Source of the DNA: Nevskia sp.
GTDB lineage: Bacteria; Pseudomonadota; Gammaproteobacteria; Nevskiales; Nevskiaceae
Direction of reading: 5' to 3'
Assembly: GCA_028291705.1 (NCBI GenBank)
Contig: JAQGNS010000227.1
Span: forward strand, 1 to 41,692
Length of the DNA: 41,692 bases
Shown in pieces: positions 1-8,350 of the stretch (position 1 is the stretch's first letter; each line of letters begins with the position of its first letter). Made by a program: the position numbers and the translations under genes. The notes under the pieces were generated by a model, which made no database searches, was not told where the DNA came from, and saw nothing but the letters and a program-made list of their open reading frames with translations.

Positions 1-662
1 CCGCGCATGAGCCGGATCACCGGTGTGGCGACACCGGGAATCTGGCTGTCGATACCGACCAGCCAGGGTTGACCATCGCGCCGCGGTGCGCTGCTGGCCA
101 GGTCGCCGCCGCAGTTCACCAGGATCGGATGTTCGCTGTCGTGCGCTGCCAGGCCGCAGGCGCGGTCGACCGCGTATTCCTTGCCGATGCCGCCGAAGTC
201 GATCTGCATGCCGGGCCTCATCCGTAGCAGCGGCGGCTGCCAGCTCAGCTTGTCCCAGCCCACCAGGGGCAGCAGCGCTGCGACGGAGGCGGGATCCGGA
301 ATCCGGTCGGAGCCGTCGAAGCACCACGCCTGGCGCAATACGCCAGAGGTGATGTCGAACTGCCCATCGCTGAGTTGGTACAGGTGCTGGGCATAGTCGA
401 GAAAGCGCGCCGTCTCCTCGTCGACGGTTATTGCTTTGCCCTGCGCCGTGTTGATCCGGTCGACAATATTGCCCGGAAGATAGCGGCTCCAGTGACGCTC
501 GATGCGCCACACCTCCTCGGCGACACATGCCGTCAGCGCCCGCAGCGTCGTTTCGTCCGCGCCATCCGCCAGCACTTCGCAGGGCGAGGCCATCGCCTCG
601 AAGTGCCCGGTCAGGGCGCCAGCGGGGGTGCGTTCAATCCGGATGTCGTGACTTCGGTTCAC
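1..662 (-). CDS. apbE: FAD:protein FMN transferase (ApbE family), 3' end outside window
   Basis: ApbE enzymes attach FMN from FAD to a threonine or serine of exported proteins, in the periplasm. The 220 residues visible here include the family's early motif FEAMASPCEV (about residues 21-30), the flavin-binding segment DFGGIGKEYAVDRA (about 155-168) and NCGGDLA (about 183-189). The C-terminal metal-binding part lies beyond the left edge. The GTG start at 662-660 overlaps the TGA of the DUF3570 gene by four bases (GTGA), so translation is probably coupled. No signal peptide is obvious after this start. It is the last visible gene of the thioredoxin-DUF4266-DUF3570-apbE operon, and the DUF3570 protein is the natural candidate substrate. 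Family assignment is firm; the substrate is inference. Confidence 0.9.
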   Translation of the reverse strand, partial: MNRSHDIRIERTPAGALTGHFEAMASPCEVLADGADETTLRALTACVAEEVWRIERHWSRYLPGNIVDRINTAQGKAITVDEETARFLDYAQHLYQLSDGQFDITSGVLRQAWCFDGSDRIPDPASVAALLPLVGWDKLSWQPPLLRMRPGMQIDFGGIGKEYAVDRACGLAAHDSEHPILVNCGGDLASSAPRRDGQPWLVGIDSQIPGVATPVIRLMR

Positions 663-1951
663 CAGTTGAAACGATAGCCGAAACTGATATTGAACGCCGA
701 CAGGTCGGGCGCGAGGTTGAATTGCGACAGTGCCGCCGCGGCCTGTTGCGGTACGCCGGTGGTCCTGCTGAACTGCTTGTAATACTCGGCGCGCACGCTC
801 AGTTCATGGCCGTTGGCCAGCACCTGGGAGTAGCCGAGACCGCCGGTCCAGGCGTTGAAAGCGCCCAGGCGTGGGTCGGCGCTGGCGTAGTCGACGGTCG
901 CATCCTCGCCGCTGTACAGGGCCGCGTGGTAGAAATCCGCCGCGCCCTGGTTGTAGAAGCGCACGCTGGGTTCGATCGCCTTGTGTTCGGCGAAATTCCA
1001 GCGATAACCCAGGTTCACGGTATGGGCGTGAATGCCCCAGCTGTCGGTGTAGTAGCGGTAGGACAGGTCGACCACGTCGCGCTTGAATACGTAGCGCTTG
1101 TACTGGATAAAGAGTGCGTTGCGGGTGCGGCTGCCGGGGCGTTTCTCGTAGACGTAATACTGCGGCACGGCATTGCTGTCGACCACGGACAGGATCTTGT
1201 ACGGATCGGTCTCGTAGCCATTGGACAGGCTCAGTGAATAGTTGAACTGCAGCAAGCCGCTCGGCCCGAGCACCTGGGTCACGCCCAGCAGGATGTCCTT
1301 GACGTTCTTGGACTTGCTCGAGCCGCCACTCTTCTCGGCGTTGATCGTCATGGTCAACGGCACCGGGGCGCGGCCCACCGGATCGACCTGGTCGTATTCG
1401 AAGGCGCCGCCGGCGCTGAGCGTGGTGTTCTTCTGGTTGAGATCGAGCGTGTAGTGGCCGTTGACGCCTACCGAGGTGAAGTCGTATTCCTTCGAGCCGC
1501 TGAGTCCCGCGCTGAACTTGCCGTTGGTGCCGAGCGGAAACAGGTAGCCGAGGTCGCCGGCAAAGCGCGTGTCCTCGAAGGTGTGATCCAGCGGTGTGGC
1601 GCCGGGGGCGGTGGTGTAGGTCTTGCCGCGCCCGGAAGGAGAGGAGAAGGTTTGCGGCGCCGCGGCGGGGGCTGCGCCATTCGGCGTGGCGCCGCTGAGG
1701 CTGTCGACGACGAAGCCGGCTGTCAGGGTGCGGTCGTTGCCCAGGTCGTAAGCGGCATTGACCGTGGGTTCGACTACCTGCACCCGGCCGCCATTTTCCT
1801 TGTAGAACAGCAGGCCGCTGTCGAAGGTCCACCGGTGCGCGGTGTCTTCCGCCGACGCCGGCGTTTCCGCGGTCATGCCCAGCAGACCCAGGGTGGCGAC
1901 AGCCAGGCTGATGCGGCGGCGGCTTGGGTCCTTCCCCCCGGTCAGTTGCAT
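659..1951 (-). CDS. DUF3570 outer-membrane beta-barrel-like protein with possible flavinylation motif
   Basis: Exported protein of 430 residues. A basic N-terminus and hydrophobic stretch ending near PASAEDT form the signal peptide, followed by alternating aromatic/polar strands and a terminal FGYRFNW typical of outer-membrane barrels. The start is set at the ATG at 1951 because GGAGG lies 7 bases upstream. The TTG six bases further up lacks such a site. It overlaps the DUF4266 gene by 10 bases and the apbE start by 4. Residues 83-89 read DSLSGAT, which fits the consensus Dxx(S/T)GAT modified by ApbE in NqrC/RnfG-type proteins. DUF3570 is known from clusters with DUF4266, thioredoxin and ApbE. 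Its biochemical role is not established, and flavinylation here is inference. Confidence 0.85.
   Translation of the reverse strand: MQLTGGKDPSRRRISLAVATLGLLGMTAETPASAEDTAHRWTFDSGLLFYKENGGRVQVVEPTVNAAYDLGNDRTLTAGFVVDSLSGATPNGAAPAAAPQTFSSPSGRGKTYTTAPGATPLDHTFEDTRFAGDLGYLFPLGTNGKFSAGLSGSKEYDFTSVGVNGHYTLDLNQKNTTLSAGGAFEYDQVDPVGRAPVPLTMTINAEKSGGSSKSKNVKDILLGVTQVLGPSGLLQFNYSLSLSNGYETDPYKILSVVDSNAVPQYYVYEKRPGSRTRNALFIQYKRYVFKRDVVDLSYRYYTDSWGIHAHTVNLGYRWNFAEHKAIEPSVRFYNQGAADFYHAALYSGEDATVDYASADPRLGAFNAWTGGLGYSQVLANGHELSVRAEYYKQFSRTTGVPQQAAAALSQFNLAPDLSAFNISFGYRFNW
1685..1705 (-). other. Candidate ApbE flavinylation site in the DUF3570 gene
   Basis: These 21 bases encode D-S-L-S-G-A-T, residues 83-89 of the DUF3570 protein, in a probable loop after the first predicted strands. 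They match the Dxx(S/T)GAT consensus in which the final Thr carries FMN. The presence of apbE in the same operon supports the reading. There is no direct evidence of modification. Confidence 0.55.
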
Positions 1952-2160
1952 CCGCAACCTCCGCCGCCGAAGCCGCGGCCGCCGCTGGCCGCTTCCTTGC
2001 TGAAATAGATGTGCTCGTCGAACCCGGTCTGGATTGGATGCGCGTCAAGTTGCATGTCGGCCCGTGCGAGCGTGCCGCGCTGCCAGGGTTTCACGTCCAT
2101 GCTGCTGCAGGCCGAGGCGCTCAACGCAAGCAGCAGGATGGATAGCTGTTGAAGTCTCAT
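1942..2160 (-). CDS. DUF4266 small lipoprotein with Gly/Cys-rich tail
   Basis: A 72-residue lipoprotein. The signal sequence ends in a lipobox with Cys18 (ALSASAC), followed by a short conserved body and the C-terminal tail GGRGFGGGGCGCN. The family signature (VKPWQRG, then DEHIYFSKEAASGG) identifies DUF4266. The ATG overlaps the thioredoxin stop by four bases (ATGA), and the last 10 bases overlap the DUF3570 gene. The Shine-Dalgarno of DUF3570 is embedded in the codons of the Gly/Cys tail. Two cysteines two residues apart at the extreme C-terminus, beside a thioredoxin and a flavin transferase, suggest a redox or cofactor-handling role. That is inference, since no function is established for the family. 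Confidence 0.85.
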   Translation of the reverse strand: MRLQQLSILLLALSASACSSMDVKPWQRGTLARADMQLDAHPIQTGFDEHIYFSKEAASGGRGFGGGGCGCN

Positions 2161-2690
2161 GGGGTGCTCCCGGTGGCGCTGCCTGATGGATCGAGCGCCT
2201 TGCGGATGGCCGCTTCGTATTCGCCGGAGCGGGCGTCGTGGAAGCCGCTGTGCTGGTGGATGACGTGGCCGGATGCATCCAGGATCACGCTGCTGGGCAT
2301 GCCGTCGATGTGGTAGTGCTCGGCCAACGCACCGGCCGGATCGTAGACCACGTTGAATTGCGCCGGATGGTGGTCGAGAAAGACCTTCGCGGCGTTCGCG
2401 TCGGTGTCCATGTCGACGGCGACGATGGTCATGCGGTTGCCGTAGCGGGTCTGCATCCGGTTCAGCCAGGGAAACGACTCGGCGCAGGGGCCGCACCAGG
2501 ACGCCCAGAAATCGACATAAACGATCTTGCCCGCATAGGCCTTCAGCGGCGCCGCGAGGGTGTCTTCTGCGGCGTGCGTCGATGTGCCGGCCAGCGCGGC
2601 CAGCAACAGGACGCTGCTCAACGCATGCCGCAATGGGAATCGATGGTTTTTACTTCGCACTGCTTCTACGCGCCGATTCGGAACGCTCAT
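2157..2690 (-). CDS. Periplasmic TlpA-like thioredoxin
   Basis: A 177-residue exported thioredoxin-fold protein. An N-terminal hydrophobic segment (about residues 20-40, ending THAAED) is the signal peptide or anchor. The active site WCGPC has cysteines at 66 and 69, and the cis-proline motif GMPSS lies near residue 140. TlpA/ResA-like proteins reduce periplasmic disulfides, for example during cytochrome or metal-centre assembly. It is the first gene of the operon and overlaps the DUF4266 gene by four bases, so its likely partner is encoded downstream, perhaps the CGC tail of DUF4266. The ATG at 2690 has no clear ribosome site. A GTG at residue 11, preceded by AGAAG, is an alternative start that leaves the signal intact. 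Confidence 0.88.
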   Translation of the reverse strand: MSVPNRRVEAVRSKNHRFPLRHALSSVLLLAALAGTSTHAAEDTLAAPLKAYAGKIVYVDFWASWCGPCAESFPWLNRMQTRYGNRMTIVAVDMDTDANAAKVFLDHHPAQFNVVYDPAGALAEHYHIDGMPSSVILDASGHVIHQHSGFHDARSGEYEAAIRKALDPSGSATGSTP

Positions 2691-2816: not shown

Positions 2817-3299
2817 TCAGAGGCCCGCCATAATGCAGCGCACCTCCGCTTCGAGCGTTTGCAGGCCGGCGGCGCGGCCGGTGGCCAGCGAGGTCTCGAC
2901 CGAGCAGCGATCGATGAAGTGCGCCTTCAGTGCCAGCAAGGCGCCGACCCGGTTGCCATTGGCGCAGTGCACCAGTGCGGCTCCGCCAGCGGCCCGGTGC
3001 AGGGCTTCGGCAAGTTGGTGGGCATTGGCGCGGGTCAGATCGCCGGGACCGGTGATCGGGATATTCAGGTATTCCATTCCCAGCGATTCGGCGAGCCGGC
3101 GCTCGTCATAGTCGCAGGGTTCCGAAGGCGCGCACAGGTCGATGACGGCGCGGACCCCACCGCACTGTGCCTGGCGCAGGTGCTGTGGCCGCGGCCGCCC
3201 GCCGCTATAGATGCGCGCGCCCGGGAAACGGACATTGGGAAGATCCACCCATGCAGCGGCCACCGACGCGGGTGGCGTGACACTGCCTTCTGCAGCCAT
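2817..3299 (-). CDS. DUF442 / dual-specificity phosphatase-like protein
   Basis: A 160-residue cytosolic protein with the signature loop VHCANGNRVG (HCxxGxR) of cysteine-based phosphatases. DUF442 members carry this loop, occur alone or fused to metallo-beta-lactamase domains (Blh), and are tied to sulfide/sulfur metabolism in several bacteria. The N-terminal part (LPNVRFPGARIYSGGRP, then GVRAVIDLC) is typical of the family. The start at 3299 is chosen because AAGGAAG lies 6 bases upstream. It appears to be a single-gene unit with a 24-bp palindrome about 220 bases upstream. Substrate is unknown: phosphatase, persulfide or sulfurtransferase roles are all possible. Confidence 0.8.
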   Translation of the reverse strand: MAAEGSVTPPASVAAAWVDLPNVRFPGARIYSGGRPRPQHLRQAQCGGVRAVIDLCAPSEPCDYDERRLAESLGMEYLNIPITGPGDLTRANAHQLAEALHRAAGGAALVHCANGNRVGALLALKAHFIDRCSVETSLATGRAAGLQTLEAEVRCIMAGL

Positions 3300-3519
3300 C
3301 TCGCACTTCCTTTTCAAACCGACTTCCAAACCGACTCGATGCGGGCGGCGCCGTTGAAGCGATGCGCTTGAGGCCCCGTGAGCAGGCAAGGCGCAACCTC
3401 CGTGCCGCCACTGCCGCGGTGGCAGGGCGTGAGCGCCAAGGGGTTGTTTTAACGGGCAGTTCGGTTGTGGAAGGGGCTCGGCGGCTATGCTTGCCGCAGC
3501 CTTTGTAGCGAGGCTCCGT

Positions 3520-3543
3520 GCATTTTCCGTATACGGAAAATGC
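3520..3543. promoter_or_regulatory. 24-bp perfect palindrome, candidate operator
   Basis: Two exact 12-bp arms, GCATTTTCCGTA and its reverse complement, meet without a spacer. The site lies in the 283-bp gap between the PstS-like gene and the DUF442 gene, upstream of the latter. No T-tract follows on either strand, so an operator for a dimeric repressor is more likely than a terminator. Which protein would bind is unknown. The rest of the gap shows nothing recognisable. Confidence 0.45.
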
Positions 3544-3582
3544 CGGCTGCACGCATTCTGCGCACTGCCAGGCCAGCGGCAA

Positions 3583-4086
3583 TCAGCGAACCGGCTGTTC
3601 GCGCTTGCAGGCCGCCGGTGAGAATCGCTCCGCTGCCGAACCACCGGTATCGATCGTCAAAGCGATCGTTACGCGGTTGTCGATGCTGCACAGCGGCACA
3701 TAGCCGATGCCGCCCGGCGTCATCGACACGAAGCGCAGCACCGCTTCAACCGACTGAAGTACCGTGGGCGGCAACACGCCATGGAAGTACAACTCATTCC
3801 AGTACGCATCGAGCCGGTCGGGGGGCATGCCGAGCACCACTTGCGAGAAGCGTTGGCGCCGCGGATCGTCGGCCGGCAGGTTGATCGGCTCGATGTGCTG
3901 CCCGTCCGGCCAATACTGTTTTTTGCGGCGGTAGATCTCGGCCAGTGCGGGCAGCCCTTCAACGCGATGGCGGGAGCCTTCCGCGACGACCACGGCCATG
4001 GGTTCGTCCGCGGCCAAGGCCGACGGAGGCGCCAGGACATGCAGTCCGGCGATGGCCAGCAGAAGGATGCCGCGGGTGAGTTTCAT
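3583..4086 (-). CDS. Small PstS-like phosphate/oxyanion-binding protein
   Basis: A 167-residue exported protein. Its signal peptide runs MKLTRGILLLAIAG to LAADE. The body resembles the truncated PstS-like proteins annotated as phosphate ABC transporter substrate-binding proteins, with features such as ALAEIYRRKKQYWPDG (growth-site region), a middle QVVLGMPP segment and the C-terminal VSMTPGGIGYV, the usual PGAIGYV anion-site motif. It is about half the length of canonical PstS, and no permease or ATPase genes are nearby, so it is probably not a classical transport component. It begins 6 bases after the porin stop and is surely cotranscribed with it. Divergent two-component genes suggest a ligand-sensing or accessory role (inference). 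Confidence 0.75.
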   Translation of the reverse strand: MKLTRGILLLAIAGLHVLAPPSALAADEPMAVVVAEGSRHRVEGLPALAEIYRRKKQYWPDGQHIEPINLPADDPRRQRFSQVVLGMPPDRLDAYWNELYFHGVLPPTVLQSVEAVLRFVSMTPGGIGYVPLCSIDNRVTIALTIDTGGSAAERFSPAACKREQPVR

Positions 4087-4092
4087 GGGGCG

Positions 4093-5190
4093 CTAGAACA
4101 GCACCGCCACCGAGAGCAGGAAGCCTTCTTTCGCGTCGATCCGGTTATCGACCGCCTTGCTGTATTCCGATTTGAGGATCAGGGCGCGGTTCCAGCGGTA
4201 ATCCAGGCCGACCAGCCAGAGGTTGACGCCCGGTTGTGAGCCGGACTCGCGGAAGTACTCGTAGCGACCGACTGCGTACAGCTTGCCGCCCAGCGGGGCG
4301 ACGCCCTGGATGAAGCCGCCTTTCTCGGCCGAATTGTCCCCTTCGCTGGAGAAGCGCCAACCCAGTTCGGTCGAGACCTCATATCCGCCCCGCGACCAGG
4401 TGGCATCCACACCGACCAGGTTCTTGCGCTCGCCGCGCTCGTTGATCTGTTCGAAGTTGGCGAAGGAGATTCCCAGCTGCAACGAATCCTGGACCGGATA
4501 GGACAGGTGCGCGCCGTAGGCCTTGTTGAAGGTGTCCAGCCGGTGATTCGGCCGCAGTTCCTTGCCGATCGACCCGTACAGCGAATAGTCCAGGCCGGCC
4601 CCCACCGAAGTCAGCGTGCCGTAGACCATCGCACCGGTGGCGTTGGTCGGAAAAGGCTCGGAGGTAATCAGCGGGCGCGACGTGGTCCAGACCAGCGGCG
4701 CCGCATGGATCAGGTTCCAGCGGCCCACGGGAGTCAGGAATTTCCCTACGCGGAGATTCAGCGCGTCGGACTGGGTCCAGTCGGCGTACAAGCGTTCCAG
4801 GGCCAGGTAGGCTCCGTCCGACGACGTGCGTCGCTGCTGTACCGTCAAGGCGTTTTCCAGTTCCGTTTCCGAAAACAGCTTCAATCGTTCCAGAGGCTGC
4901 CACCAGAGGAACAGGCTGAGACTGTTGACGTCCAGCGTCCATGGCTGGCCTTGTACCTTGTCCAGAGAACTCGCGGCATAGCCGCCAAGGGTCAGGTCTG
5001 TGTCGGGCACCTGCCAGCCGTGGCCGAGCTGGTAGCCTGTATCATCGGCCACCGCTTGTTGAGCCAGTGCCGGCGTCGCCGGCTGCGCCAACAACATCAG
5101 CAGTCCTGCTGCCGCGACCGCCACGCTGTGCCGCGCAGCGGATGGGCGCCGCGGGGTCCGCACTATCCGGTCGATCCGATTTCTGTTCAT
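4093..5190 (-). CDS. Outer-membrane porin-like barrel
   Basis: A 365-residue protein. A signal segment after two arginine-rich stretches ends PALAQQA, followed by barrel strands: DLTLGGYAASSLDK, a plug-like KLFSETELENALT, LRVGKFLTPVGRWNLIHA, and a C-terminus LLSVAVLF ending in Phe, as outer-membrane insertion requires. The segment with KFLTPVGRWN resembles phosphate-selective or OprP/OprO-type porins, but no specificity can be claimed. It forms an operon with the PstS-like gene. The start codon lies only 8 bases from the start of the divergent histidine-kinase gene. No ribosome site precedes it, so the true start or promoter arrangement needs checking. Confidence 0.75.
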   Translation of the reverse strand: MNRNRIDRIVRTPRRPSAARHSVAVAAAGLLMLLAQPATPALAQQAVADDTGYQLGHGWQVPDTDLTLGGYAASSLDKVQGQPWTLDVNSLSLFLWWQPLERLKLFSETELENALTVQQRRTSSDGAYLALERLYADWTQSDALNLRVGKFLTPVGRWNLIHAAPLVWTTSRPLITSEPFPTNATGAMVYGTLTSVGAGLDYSLYGSIGKELRPNHRLDTFNKAYGAHLSYPVQDSLQLGISFANFEQINERGERKNLVGVDATWSRGGYEVSTELGWRFSSEGDNSAEKGGFIQGVAPLGGKLYAVGRYEYFRESGSQPGVNLWLVGLDYRWNRALILKSEYSKAVDNRIDAKEGFLLSVAVLF

Positions 5191-5198
5191 ATATTCGC

Positions 5199-6959
5199 GT
5201 GACGATACGAAGAACCCTGCTGGGCGCTTTTCTGCTGGTCGGCATGACCCCCAGCGTTATTCTGACTTATCTGTCCTATGTGCAGACGAGGGACGCCCTG
5301 CGCCACGAGGTCGAGACCAGCCTGGAAGCGCAGGCGGCGAGCGTGTCGGTCGATATCGACCACCTCCTGTTCGAGCGCCTGCAGAACGCCCTGGGCTGGA
5401 ATCGCCTGGATGTGATGCAGGACATCCGCATCAATGATGTGGACAAGCGGCTGTCGCAGTTCCTCGCCGAAGTGAAGGCCTCGTATGGCGATATCTACCG
5501 CGAGCTTTACTGCGTCGATGCCAACGGCCGCATCGTCGCCAGCAGTTCGCCGCAACTGATCGGCGGCTTGGCTCCGCCGGTGCAGCCCTGGCTCGATGTG
5601 GTCCTGCCCAACGGCTCGGTGGCGCTGGACGCGCTGCAGCTCGATGCCTCCGGCGTTCACCGCGTGCTGCCGCTGCGTACGGCCATCATCTCCGTCACCG
5701 ACGGCACCGAGATGGGCGAACTGGTGCTGTTGTTCGACTGGCGCCAGATCGATCGCATCCTCGACGGCATTTCGCGCAGCGGTCGCATGGCCGTGCTGCT
5801 CGACGGGATGCAGCGTGCCATCGACTCTTCGGAGGAATTGCGGCGGCAGGATGCACTGAGCGAAGCCATCCCGCAGCGCTGGGATCTGCCGGCCGGGCAA
5901 TCCGGTGCCATCACCCGCGAATATCCGCAGTTGAAGGGTCCCGCCATCCTCGGCTTCAGCCACTCGCAGGACTCCGCACGTTTCCCCGGACTGCGCTGGA
6001 CGACCGTGGTGTTGCAGCCCAGCGACACGGCCCTGGCCGTGGTACAGCGCATGCGCTTCACTTTCAGCGCGCTGTTGCTGGCCACCTTACTGCTCACGGC
6101 GATTTTCGCCGGCTTTGTCGCCCGGCAGATCGCGCGACCCATCGCAGGGCTGACCGATTTCACCCGCCGTTTTTCCCGTGAGCAGAAGCTGCCGCCGGTT
6201 CCCGAGGGCCAGCGGGGCGAGGTCGGTGAGCTGACCGAGGCCTTCGTCAAGACCGTGCGCGAACTGGACCGTTCAAGGCAGGATTTCCTGCGGGCATCCA
6301 GATTGGCGGTGGCGGGCGAGATTGCCGCGGTGATGGCGCACGAGGTGCGCACGCCCCTTGGTATCCTGCGCTCCTCGGCGCAGGTCTTGCGGGAGGAGCC
6401 CCACATCAGCGCCGAGGGCCGCGAACTGGTCGGCTTCATCGACAGCGAGACCGAGCGCATCAACCGTCTGGTCACCAGCGTGCTCGACAGTGCCAAGCCC
6501 CATCCGCCGGTGTTGGGGCGGCATGACCTGGGCCTGGTCGTCCATCGCTGCATCCTCATGCTGGGACCGCAGGCGGAGAAGCGCGGGGTCTTGCTCGAGG
6601 AAGGTGGCGAGGGCGGGCTGGAGATCGATTGCGATGAGGAGCAGATGATCCAGGTGGTTCTCAATCTGTTGCTCAATGCGGTACAGATCCTGCCGTCCGG
6701 CGGGCGGGTGCGGGTGGAGTGCAGCGATCGGGGCGAGAACGTGCACATTCAGGTCGATGACGACGGTCCCGGCATTTCCCCGGCGGAACGCGCCAACATA
6801 TTCGAGCCCTTCATCAGCAAGCGTCCCGGCGGTCTCGGCCTGGGGCTCGCGGTGGTCAAGCAGATCGTGCTGGCGCACCACGGCGATATCGAGATCGGCG
6901 AGAGCCGCTGGGGCGGCGCCCTGTTTTCAATTCATCTACCACGCAATGTGAAGCCATGA
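5199..6959 (+). CDS. Membrane sensor histidine kinase (NtrB-type partner)
   Basis: A 586-residue kinase. A first membrane helix (LLGAFLLVGMTPSVILTYL), a periplasmic sensor region of about 230 residues, and a second helix (FSALLLATLLLTAIFAGFV) are followed by HAMP, HisKA with the phosphoacceptor His381 in MAHEVRTPLG, and the ATPase domain. The N box is NLLLNAVQI, the G1 box DDDGPGIS and the G2 box GGLGLGLAVV. It autophosphorylates and passes phosphate to the sigma54 regulator whose ATG overlaps its TGA by four bases. GTG at 5199 is chosen because it leaves a complete first helix. An ATG at 5142 is an alternative; neither has a strong ribosome site. The divergent porin/PstS-like operon is the likely target and source of the signal (inference). 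Confidence 0.9.
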   Translation: MTIRRTLLGAFLLVGMTPSVILTYLSYVQTRDALRHEVETSLEAQAASVSVDIDHLLFERLQNALGWNRLDVMQDIRINDVDKRLSQFLAEVKASYGDIYRELYCVDANGRIVASSSPQLIGGLAPPVQPWLDVVLPNGSVALDALQLDASGVHRVLPLRTAIISVTDGTEMGELVLLFDWRQIDRILDGISRSGRMAVLLDGMQRAIDSSEELRRQDALSEAIPQRWDLPAGQSGAITREYPQLKGPAILGFSHSQDSARFPGLRWTTVVLQPSDTALAVVQRMRFTFSALLLATLLLTAIFAGFVARQIARPIAGLTDFTRRFSREQKLPPVPEGQRGEVGELTEAFVKTVRELDRSRQDFLRASRLAVAGEIAAVMAHEVRTPLGILRSSAQVLREEPHISAEGRELVGFIDSETERINRLVTSVLDSAKPHPPVLGRHDLGLVVHRCILMLGPQAEKRGVLLEEGGEGGLEIDCDEEQMIQVVLNLLLNAVQILPSGGRVRVECSDRGENVHIQVDDDGPGISPAERANIFEPFISKRPGGLGLGLAVVKQIVLAHHGDIEIGESRWGGALFSIHLPRNVKP

Positions 6960-8350
6960 GCGCCATACGGCAGAAAATCCTGATCGTCGACGACGAGGAG
7001 AAGATGCGGCGCGTGCTGGAGATCATGCTGCAACGCATGGGCCATCAGGTCGGCTCCGCGGAAAACGGTGAAGACGCTTTGCAAAAGCTGGAAAGTGCCT
7101 CCTACGACCTGGTGATCAGCGATCTGCGCATGCCGGGTATCGACGGCGCCGAGCTGCTCGGGCGCCTGCGCGAGGCTGGCAACGATGTGCCGTTCATCAT
7201 CGTCACCGCCCATGGCAGCATCGAGAGCGCCGTTGCCGCCATGAAGAAAGGCGCCAACGATTATCTCCTGCGTCCGTTCGACATGGAGACCCTGAAACTC
7301 GCCCTGGACCGGGTATTCGCCACCCGGCGGATGCGGCAGCAGAACGATTTCCTGCGCGCGGAACTGGATCGCGGCTGGGGCGGCCTGATCGGCACCAGCC
7401 AGCTCATGCGCGAGGTCTACGAGAAAGTGCGGCTGGTGGCACCCAACAAGACGGCCGTGCTGATCACCGGCGAAACCGGCACCGGCAAGGAGCTGATCGC
7501 CCGCGCCATCCACCAGGCTTCGCCGCGCAACGAGCGCTTGTTCGTGGCGGTGAACTGTGCCGCGATTCCCGCCGAGATGATCGAGAGCGAGCTGTTCGGC
7601 TACGAAAAAGGCGCCTTCACCGGGGCGCACAAGGATCGCATCGGCCGTTTCGAACTGGCCAGCGGTGGAACGCTGTTCCTCGACGAGCTGACCGAGATGC
7701 CCATCGCCCTGCAGTCCAAACTGCTGCGGGTGCTGCAGGATCAGGTGATCGAACGCCTGGGCAGCAGCCATTCGATCCCGCTGGACCTACGTGTGGTGGT
7801 CGCCACCAACCGTGACCCGCGCCGCGCGATCGCGGAGGGCCGGCTGCGCGAAGACCTTTACTACCGGGTCAACGTTTTTTCCATCGAACTCCCACCCCTG
7901 CGGCAGCGCCGCAGCGATATTCCCCCGCTTGCGCGCCATTTTGTTGACGAGTTCGTCCGCAGCGGACTGGATCCCGGCGGCATCACGCCGGATGCTCTCG
8001 CTGCGCTTGAGCGTTACGACTGGCCGGGCAATGTCCGCGAACTGAGAAACGTGATTGAGCGCGCCGCGGTCCTCTGCCACGGCGCCATGATCGATGTGGA
8101 GCATCTGCCAGCAGAATGGACGCCCGGACCGGAGTCCGCCCCGGATTCCACCCCTGGGGCCGCACCGGATGCGGTTGCCGCGACGGCGAGTGATCTCGAT
8201 CTCAATCAGGCGGTCGATGCCGTGGAATCGCGATTGATCGCCGAGGCGCTGCGGCGAGCCGGGGGAAACAAGACGCGGGCAGCCACGCTGCTGAATATCA
8301 GCGTGCGCTCGCTCTGGCACAAGCTCGGTAAATACCGCCTCGGGGATTGA
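6956..8350 (+). CDS. Sigma54-dependent NtrC-family response regulator
   Basis: A 464-residue activator of RNA polymerase-sigma54. The receiver domain (1-120) has acidic residues DDE at 12-14 and phosphoacceptor Asp56. The AAA+ domain has Walker A GETGTGKE (172-179), the sigma54-contact loop GAFTGA (219-224), Walker B TLFLDE and an arginine-finger region. The C-terminal Fis-type helix-turn-helix is near [21 protein letters not shown]. The usual receiver motif KPF reads RPF here (Arg106 for the conserved switch Lys). It is translationally coupled to the kinase (ATGA). The expected targets are sigma54 promoters of the adjacent porin/PstS-like operon, though no clear -24/-12 element was found there. 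Confidence 0.93.

Follow-up and report, generated by a model that had tools for sequence, protein, structure and literature searches.

The locus described here raises the question of whether a β-barrel protein of the outer membrane can itself carry a covalently attached flavin and, if so, how the flavin gets there and what it does. The DNA in question is a 41,692-nucleotide contig of Nevskia sp. (assembly GCA_028291705.1, contig JAQGNS010000227.1; the whole stretch is referred to as the window, and is contig C525 of genome G000). Near its start, four genes on the minus strand, each overlapping the next, encode in order a thioredoxin-like protein, a DUF4266 lipoprotein, a DUF3570 protein, and ApbE, the FAD:protein FMN transferase (FAD, flavin adenine dinucleotide; FMN, flavin mononucleotide). 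The junctions are ATGA (thioredoxin/DUF4266), a 10-nt overlap (DUF4266/DUF3570), and GTGA (DUF3570/apbE), and because all three overlap, the genes are regarded as a coupled operon. An earlier note on this DNA had described such an operon, with DUF3570 overlapping apbE and a thioredoxin and a Cys-tailed DUF4266 lipoprotein alongside, and the junctions and Pfam matches agree with it. The motif DSLSGAT, which the note placed at residues 83-89 of DUF3570, was found there by counting from the ATG.

To place the window protein among its relatives, the best 80 of 485 relatives of the window DUF3570 from a genome scan were taken as the type-A set, and 40 DUF3570 loci of nearby genomes as a second set (contigs L038/L100, L039/L101, and L044/L103 are common to both). 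A phylum-wide survey covered 299 genomes including that of the window, and 21 of its DUF3570 loci were examined for ApbE. The site alignment comprised 80 rows, namely the window and 79 type-A loci (L103, with a missing N-terminus, was omitted). The pattern [ST]GA[ST] occupied the site in 77 rows, and the acceptor was Ser (63) or Thr (17) in all 80. The D, L, and G of the motif and the Ser/Thr at position 86 were likewise present in 80 rows, and the A in 77; the three rows departing from A keep a Ser/Thr acceptor (LTGSS in L105 and L125, LTGPT in L116), and single-letter variants of the site were seen in L040, L105, L116, and L125. About 0.05 [ST]GA[ST] words would be expected by chance per 430-residue protein, as estimated from typical residue frequencies. 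The conservation across the 80 aligned rows indicates that the D83-T89 motif is genuine.

Flavinylation of this family, which the earlier note treated as open, is already published for a homologue. As described in the DUF3570 passages of Méheust et al. (2021, eLife, PMC8238504), the Chlorobium luteolum DUF3570 produced in E. coli together with its ApbE was flavinylated, and changes of the serines in both [ST]GA[ST] sites abolished the modification. The suggestion that the barrel itself carries the covalent FMN is therefore supported both by this homologue and by the barrel model described below. We regard flavinylation of T89 in the window protein as highly likely, and the window barrel very probably carries a covalently attached flavin.

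The window DUF3570 has a single [ST]GA[ST] site (SGAT at 86-89), and other DUF3570 subtypes in related genomes have a pair of sites separated by about 20 or 11 residues. In a quick DUF3570 tree of 76 rows with Shimodaira-Hasegawa-like approximate likelihood ratio test (SH-aLRT) support, the window falls in a 32-row clade (support 99) that includes no two-site row; within it, L040 (AGAS) has none, and L105 is counted through an SGAS elsewhere than the site. L233, which has two sites, joins this clade on a long branch (support 92). Having one site does not set the window clade apart, since other clades include single-site proteins too. The genome of the window encodes a second DUF3570 (G000:C588, L046), with two sites and its own thioredoxin, DUF4266, and signal-less ApbE.

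An apbE gene lies within 2 kb of DUF3570 in 72/80 type-A loci (five lack it and three are cut by a contig end) and in 29/40 nearby loci. The idea that the motif would be specific to DUF3570 proteins beside apbE did not hold when checked, since it is retained at every locus without apbE within that distance (5/5 type-A, 9/9 nearby). Anywhere in the genome, apbE was present in 11/11 genomes tested, several of them with apbE-free DUF3570 loci (not the five type-A ones), which counts for little because 84/100 phylum genomes have apbE anyway. The window apbE runs off the end of its contig, and the remaining codons, including HILDPRTGWP, are on C364, another contig of the assembly that has 127 identical bases in common with the window start. 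Together they give 220 + 78 = 298 residues, the same length as the ApbE homologue modelled from L100. The L100 locus, a near homologue (73% identity), lies in a Nevskia metagenome-assembled genome.

The mature window DUF3570 was modelled with AlphaFold2 from 80 aligned sequences as 16 long strands (predicted local distance difference test score, pLDDT, 94.7). Foldseek gave 581 matches at E≤0.001, which were porin-type barrels (best E 4.8e-13). VIA-align ranked BamA first (Z 22.5), with OmpG (2iwv, Z 18.0) and a Comamonas anion-selective porin (1e54, Z 16.2) behind it, and the model runs from N to C in the same direction as OmpG and 1e54. By sequence, no convincing solved relative of DUF3570 was found, the one match (E 0.084) being a designed protein. 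The C-terminus FNW, an aromatic end, and the signal segment both fit an outer-membrane β-barrel, and the window DUF3570 is, on this model, almost certainly one. In the model, turns of 2-5 residues lie on one face and loops of 2 to 38 residues on the other. The short-turn face of an outer-membrane barrel is usually periplasmic, and the 2-5-residue face was assigned accordingly. T89 then starts the 38-residue loop, the longest, at the outer end of strand 3, and D83 lies at the same end on the side taken as inward. The flavin would thus be located, with high likelihood, on the outer side of the membrane, and T89 itself would face into the barrel vestibule. Of the 16 strands, 12 show distinctly stronger conservation at the odd, mostly polar positions, which were taken as inward-facing; strands 1 and 6 show it at the even positions instead, and strands 2 and 16 differ little between the two. 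A 912-residue open frame at L076/L231 (3766-6501) extends beyond DUF3570 into another domain, by eye possibly a membrane barrel.

Export signals were scored by our own hydrophobicity measure, the best uncharged 10-residue stretch after each possible start near the core, with a threshold of 1.8. The window ApbE showed no N-terminal signal peptide or lipobox (0.32). A signal segment was absent from all ApbEs at DUF3570 loci (0/72 type-A and 0/31 nearby, 0/103 in total, of which about 100 are distinct). It was present in most type-A partners (DUF3570 65/79, DUF4266 75/77, thioredoxin 63/71) and most nearby ones (DUF3570 14/21 scorable among the 40 loci, DUF4266 39/39, thioredoxin 32/37). Among control ApbEs (30 fetched loci from the best-scoring ApbEs of 100 phylum genomes, picked irrespective of DUF3570), 24/30 had a signal segment and 15/30 a lipobox, and 19/30 had the segment under a poorer core placement. 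A model of the L100 ApbE homologue (pLDDT 93.8) has strands at residues 8-11 and 17-23. As the ApbE lacks a signal and the barrel, lipoprotein, and thioredoxin mostly have one, flavinylation probably precedes export, and attachment of FMN to DUF3570 before export is moderately favoured. Figure 4D of PMC8238504 may already mark ApbE as not secreted. A search of open-access papers, mostly at the level of titles and abstract openings, surfaced no study in which an ApbE without a signal modifies an outer-membrane protein.

The DUF4266 lipoprotein is the constant partner of the barrel. Above-cut-off matches to PF12094 (DUF3570) and PF14086 (DUF4266) co-occur in the same 20/299 phylum genomes with 23 copies each (split matches joined), and a further genome, G078, has a DUF4266 match below threshold; DUF4266 is present in 77/80 type-A and 39/40 nearby loci. 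All 140 DUF4266 proteins found have a C-terminal CxC, and 136/140, including that of the window, have CGCN; these tails were collected by similarity, so members without the tail may be missed. In the type-A set, the mean entropy is about 0.3 bits over the last 24 residues vs 1.35 for the preceding 26. As the last DUF4266 codons overlap the DUF3570 start, a few bases could be conserved for that reason, but not the whole tail. No convincing solved relative of DUF4266 was found by sequence (best E 0.42). An in-frame DUF4266-DUF3570 fusion at L141, considered as proof of contact, was dropped because its Cys tail is missing, and it is not counted among the 140. A thioredoxin partner occurs in 73/80 type-A loci, some of the remainder being cut short, and an open reading frame (ORF) of the DsbD group in 11/80 (one member, L160, was checked against Pfam). 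The window thioredoxin matched seven Pfam families at E≤0.01, among them PF08534 (Redoxin), PF13905 (Thioredoxin_8), and PF00085; PF13899 was not one of them, and the NCBIfam ResA/DsbE matches were under cut-off. The coordinates of the operon features are given in Table 1.

Table 1. Features of the flavinylation operon in the window (positions on the window; all on the minus strand).
Feature	Coordinates	Strand	Evidence
Thioredoxin-like protein (TlpA/ResA-like Redoxin, WASWCGPC), predicted to be exported	2157..2690	-	PF08534 6.9e-17; signal segment 2.52
DUF4266 lipoprotein, 72 aa	1942..2160	-	PF14086 2.7e-24; signal segment 2.55 followed by SASAC; lipobox judged by eye
DUF4266 conserved last 24 residues, ending GGGGCGCN (CxC thiol tail)	1945..2016	-	CxC conservation; entropy
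DUF3570, predicted outer-membrane 16-strand barrel, 430 aa, ATG start	659..1951	-	PF12094 6.2e-123; AlphaFold2 model; porin-type PDB matches
DUF3570 signal peptide, residues 1-34, cleavage after PASA	1850..1951	-	Hydrophobic segment 2.18; cleavage point by eye
Flavinylation site D83-SLSGA-T89, T89 the predicted FMN acceptor	1685..1705	-	Residue count from ATG; conservation; homologous serines (DUF3570 passages of PMC8238504)
apbE (FAD:protein FMN transferase), GTG start at 662, first 220 residues	1..662	-	PF02424 5.7e-39; signal score 0.32

From these observations, the following course can be proposed. In the cytosol, ApbE would attach FMN to the still unfolded DUF3570 precursor, the flavinylated chain would be exported by the Sec translocon, and the β-barrel assembly machinery (BAM) would insert the barrel, so that the FMN on T89 would end at its extracellular mouth. 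The exported thioredoxin would take its electrons from DsbD or a comparable donor in the inner membrane, the flexible C-terminal CxC arm of DUF4266 would relay electrons from thioredoxin to FMN, and FMN would reduce something outside, possibly ferric iron. A misfolded, cytosolic precursor seems to be a substrate: in the sections of PMC8238504 concerned, co-expression in E. coli gives flavinylation, the approach resembles the one used for the signal-truncated DUF2271 pair, and DUF3570 is recovered mostly in the cell pellet. PMC6021171 was considered as a precedent for SecYEG passing dye-bearing preproteins and was left unused, as the dyes in the experiments concerned sit on the translocon, not the cargo. 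Taken as a whole, a Sec-exported barrel with one FMN on T89, loaded in the cytosol by ApbE and held at the extracellular mouth, has about an even chance of being right. Electron flow from periplasm to surface is plausible; electron transfer from thiols to the flavin may occur, at slightly less than even odds, and iron as the external acceptor is doubtful.

Several points weigh against this proposal. The PDB matches of the barrel are distant (Foldseek template-modelling scores by model length of 0.33-0.52 among the 50 matches listed), and the topology was read from strand order, not coordinates. The signal calls rest on our own score rather than SignalP. A missing signal is not confined to ApbEs near DUF3570: by eye, those at C403 and C358 of the window genome lack one too, as do 6/30 controls (two of the six had a misplaced core or gave nothing to score). 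In the phylum set, 2/15 nearby ApbEs exceeded the cut-off, L235 at 1.84 with a segment from an alternative start and L240 at 1.86 with a segment inside the conserved ApbE core, and some other DUF3570 clusters pair with a signal-bearing ApbE. Finally, no DsbD was found beside the window operon: upstream, other families were found to 8.3 kb, and downstream the search covered C364 4300-6147 only, by eye.

The order of flavinylation and export is the first point at which another explanation must be weighed. DUF3570 could receive its FMN in the periplasm, once Sec has exported it and before the barrel is assembled, from an ApbE that leaves the cytosol without a recognisable signal or from another exported ApbE. 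Most ApbEs do act in the periplasm, as stated in the part of PMC12052999 consulted, the motif persists in DUF3570 proteins without a neighbouring apbE in a sample where every genome tested has the gene, and ApbE carries a signal peptide in the cytochrome-linked clade (3/4) and on both Hymenobacter plasmids. Yet the operon ApbE opens almost directly with its folded core, judging from the homologue model, its frame is translationally coupled, and none of the 103 ApbEs at DUF3570 loci has a signal. Periplasmic flavinylation appears somewhat unlikely, and cytosolic loading is the preferred reading.

The function of the pair is the other point. The CxC tail of DUF4266 might bind copper or iron and pass the metal to the barrel without any thiol-to-flavin transfer. 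Metal ligands can also take the form of a CxC on a glycine-rich arm, and the type-A neighbours include two-component systems nearest to the PmrAB/QseBC/PorY models (under cut-off), cupredoxins, and EfeU-like genes. Against this stand the thioredoxin in most type-A loci (73/80) and the DsbD-group ORFs (11/80), and metal delivery is considered unlikely. A sensing or gating role, in which FMN in the vestibule would respond to the redox state of thiols by opening or closing a solute channel, with no outward electron transfer, would suit the porin-like fold, the stronger conservation of the presumed inward-facing positions in 12 of 16 strands, and the cupredoxin, EfeU-like permease, and second outer-membrane-like protein that adjoin the operon in some loci. 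However, all partners are redox proteins, the window neighbours suggest no transported solute, and the conservation pattern is reversed in strands 1 and 6 and little developed in 2 and 16; gating seems quite improbable.

Neighbouring ORFs were grouped by BLAST, and representatives were scanned with Pfam and NCBIfam. A histidine-kinase group occurs in 32/80 type-A loci and a response-regulator group in 24/80, the two-component systems being assigned to their nearest models as given above. The groups that include cupredoxin, an EfeU-like permease, and an outer-membrane-like protein were each present at 9-12 type-A loci; the EfeU-like assignment is weak (0.0019, reached by one of the two members scanned). 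In seven Alteromonadales-type loci (L131, L135, L143, L148, L157, L161, and L179), a response regulator, kinase, cupredoxin, EfeU-like permease, and small outer-membrane-like protein lie near the operon. The cupredoxin, EfeU-like, and outer-membrane-like neighbours point to metal, perhaps iron, chemistry, and an iron link of DUF3570 systems was proposed from VIT1 neighbours in the corresponding section of PMC8238504. Positions 2817-8350 of the window encode a BLH/PTP-like phosphatase, a 167-aa protein without a Pfam match, a BBP2-like porin, a divergent histidine kinase, and an NtrC-type regulator; the phosphatase-like and porin-like matches are under the Pfam cut-off, and these genes do not tell of a function or solute.

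In the phylum set, 15/21 DUF3570 loci have a nearby ApbE. Six have no adjacent apbE. The strict motif is missing from three of these (SSAS, SSAS, and SNAS), and the other three keep SGAS, in L237 at a shifted place; five of the six (not L237) form one clade with L071 (support 100), so that the S-G-A-S pattern is lost in 3/6 members of this clade, as it is in the Hymenobacter copy L248. An apbE within 20 kb could be read in four of the six loci, with a signal peptide in 3/4 (absent in L253). The clusters of L250-L252, whose ApbEs are the signal-bearing ones, and that of L254, which has no apbE, include CXXCH-motif proteins. At L250, L251, and L252 (G067, G075, and G327), and partly at L254, the divergent DUF3570/DUF4266/thioredoxin genes stand in large clusters with two-CXXCH proteins and an SH3/barrel protein; HZS_alpha-like and LamG-type proteins were found at L250, the only one scanned with Pfam. 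These clusters would represent a cytochrome system of a puzzling kind. A plasmid search for relatives gave four records. The Bacteroidota sample consists of two Hymenobacter plasmids, one with apbE split over two frames and the other with DUF3570 annotated in two pieces; both have an ApbE with a signal, and L248, the aligned copy, lacks the strict motif. With signal-bearing ApbEs and a loosened site in these divergent clusters, loss of the signal tracks the tight operon type and the strict site in this sample, which is small outside Pseudomonadota.

The closest described system is that of PMC8238504. In its passages on 'DsbD systems', the thioredoxin-like/DUF4266/DUF3570/apbE set is described, including 316 clusters without DsbD, and the window shares with it the same four families, the [ST]GA[ST] site, the neighbouring apbE, and the DUF4266 CxC tail. 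It differs in having one site instead of two, a thioredoxin of Redoxin/Thioredoxin_8 type instead of PF13899, no DsbD found adjoining, and an ApbE without a signal by our score. In full-text searches of the open-access literature, no account of DUF3570 or DUF4266 besides PMC8238504 surfaced; a 2024 follow-up (PMC11334425) models other ApbE substrates, and the term DUF3570 is absent from the text available. The cytosolic ApbE of Klebsiella, according to the relevant part of PMC12052999, is signal-less like that of the window, but its substrate, a soluble fumarate reductase, remains cytosolic, whereas the window substrate would be an exported outer-membrane barrel. The present analysis adds to published work the barrel model with T89 placed, the one-site clade, the signal-less ApbE, the co-occurrence of DUF4266 with DUF3570, and the signal-bearing ApbE in divergent clusters.

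Porin-cytochrome conduits such as MtrCAB provide a barrel-based electron route across the outer membrane. The role proposed for the window operon would be similar, but with flavin and thiols in place of haem, and no haem-protein Pfam match was found in the four operon proteins. In LptDE-type complexes, one barrel pairs with one lipoprotein, which sits inside it; DUF4266 and DUF3570 resemble such a one-to-one pair, although DUF4266 is far smaller and its contact with the barrel is putative. A complete haem-free conduit, in which FMN attached in the cytosol is carried through Sec and BAM to the surface and the 24-residue glycine-rich CGCN arm of DUF4266, reaching through the lumen, passes periplasmic thiol electrons to it, would be an unlikely outcome in all its parts.

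In summary, a modification has been demonstrated for DUF3570 systems, and the operon may represent a cytochrome-free passage of electrons across the outer membrane. A sharp prediction follows from the signal-less ApbE, namely flavinylation ahead of export, and the electron path can be approached through DUF4266, a constant partner whose CxC tail is nearly invariant.

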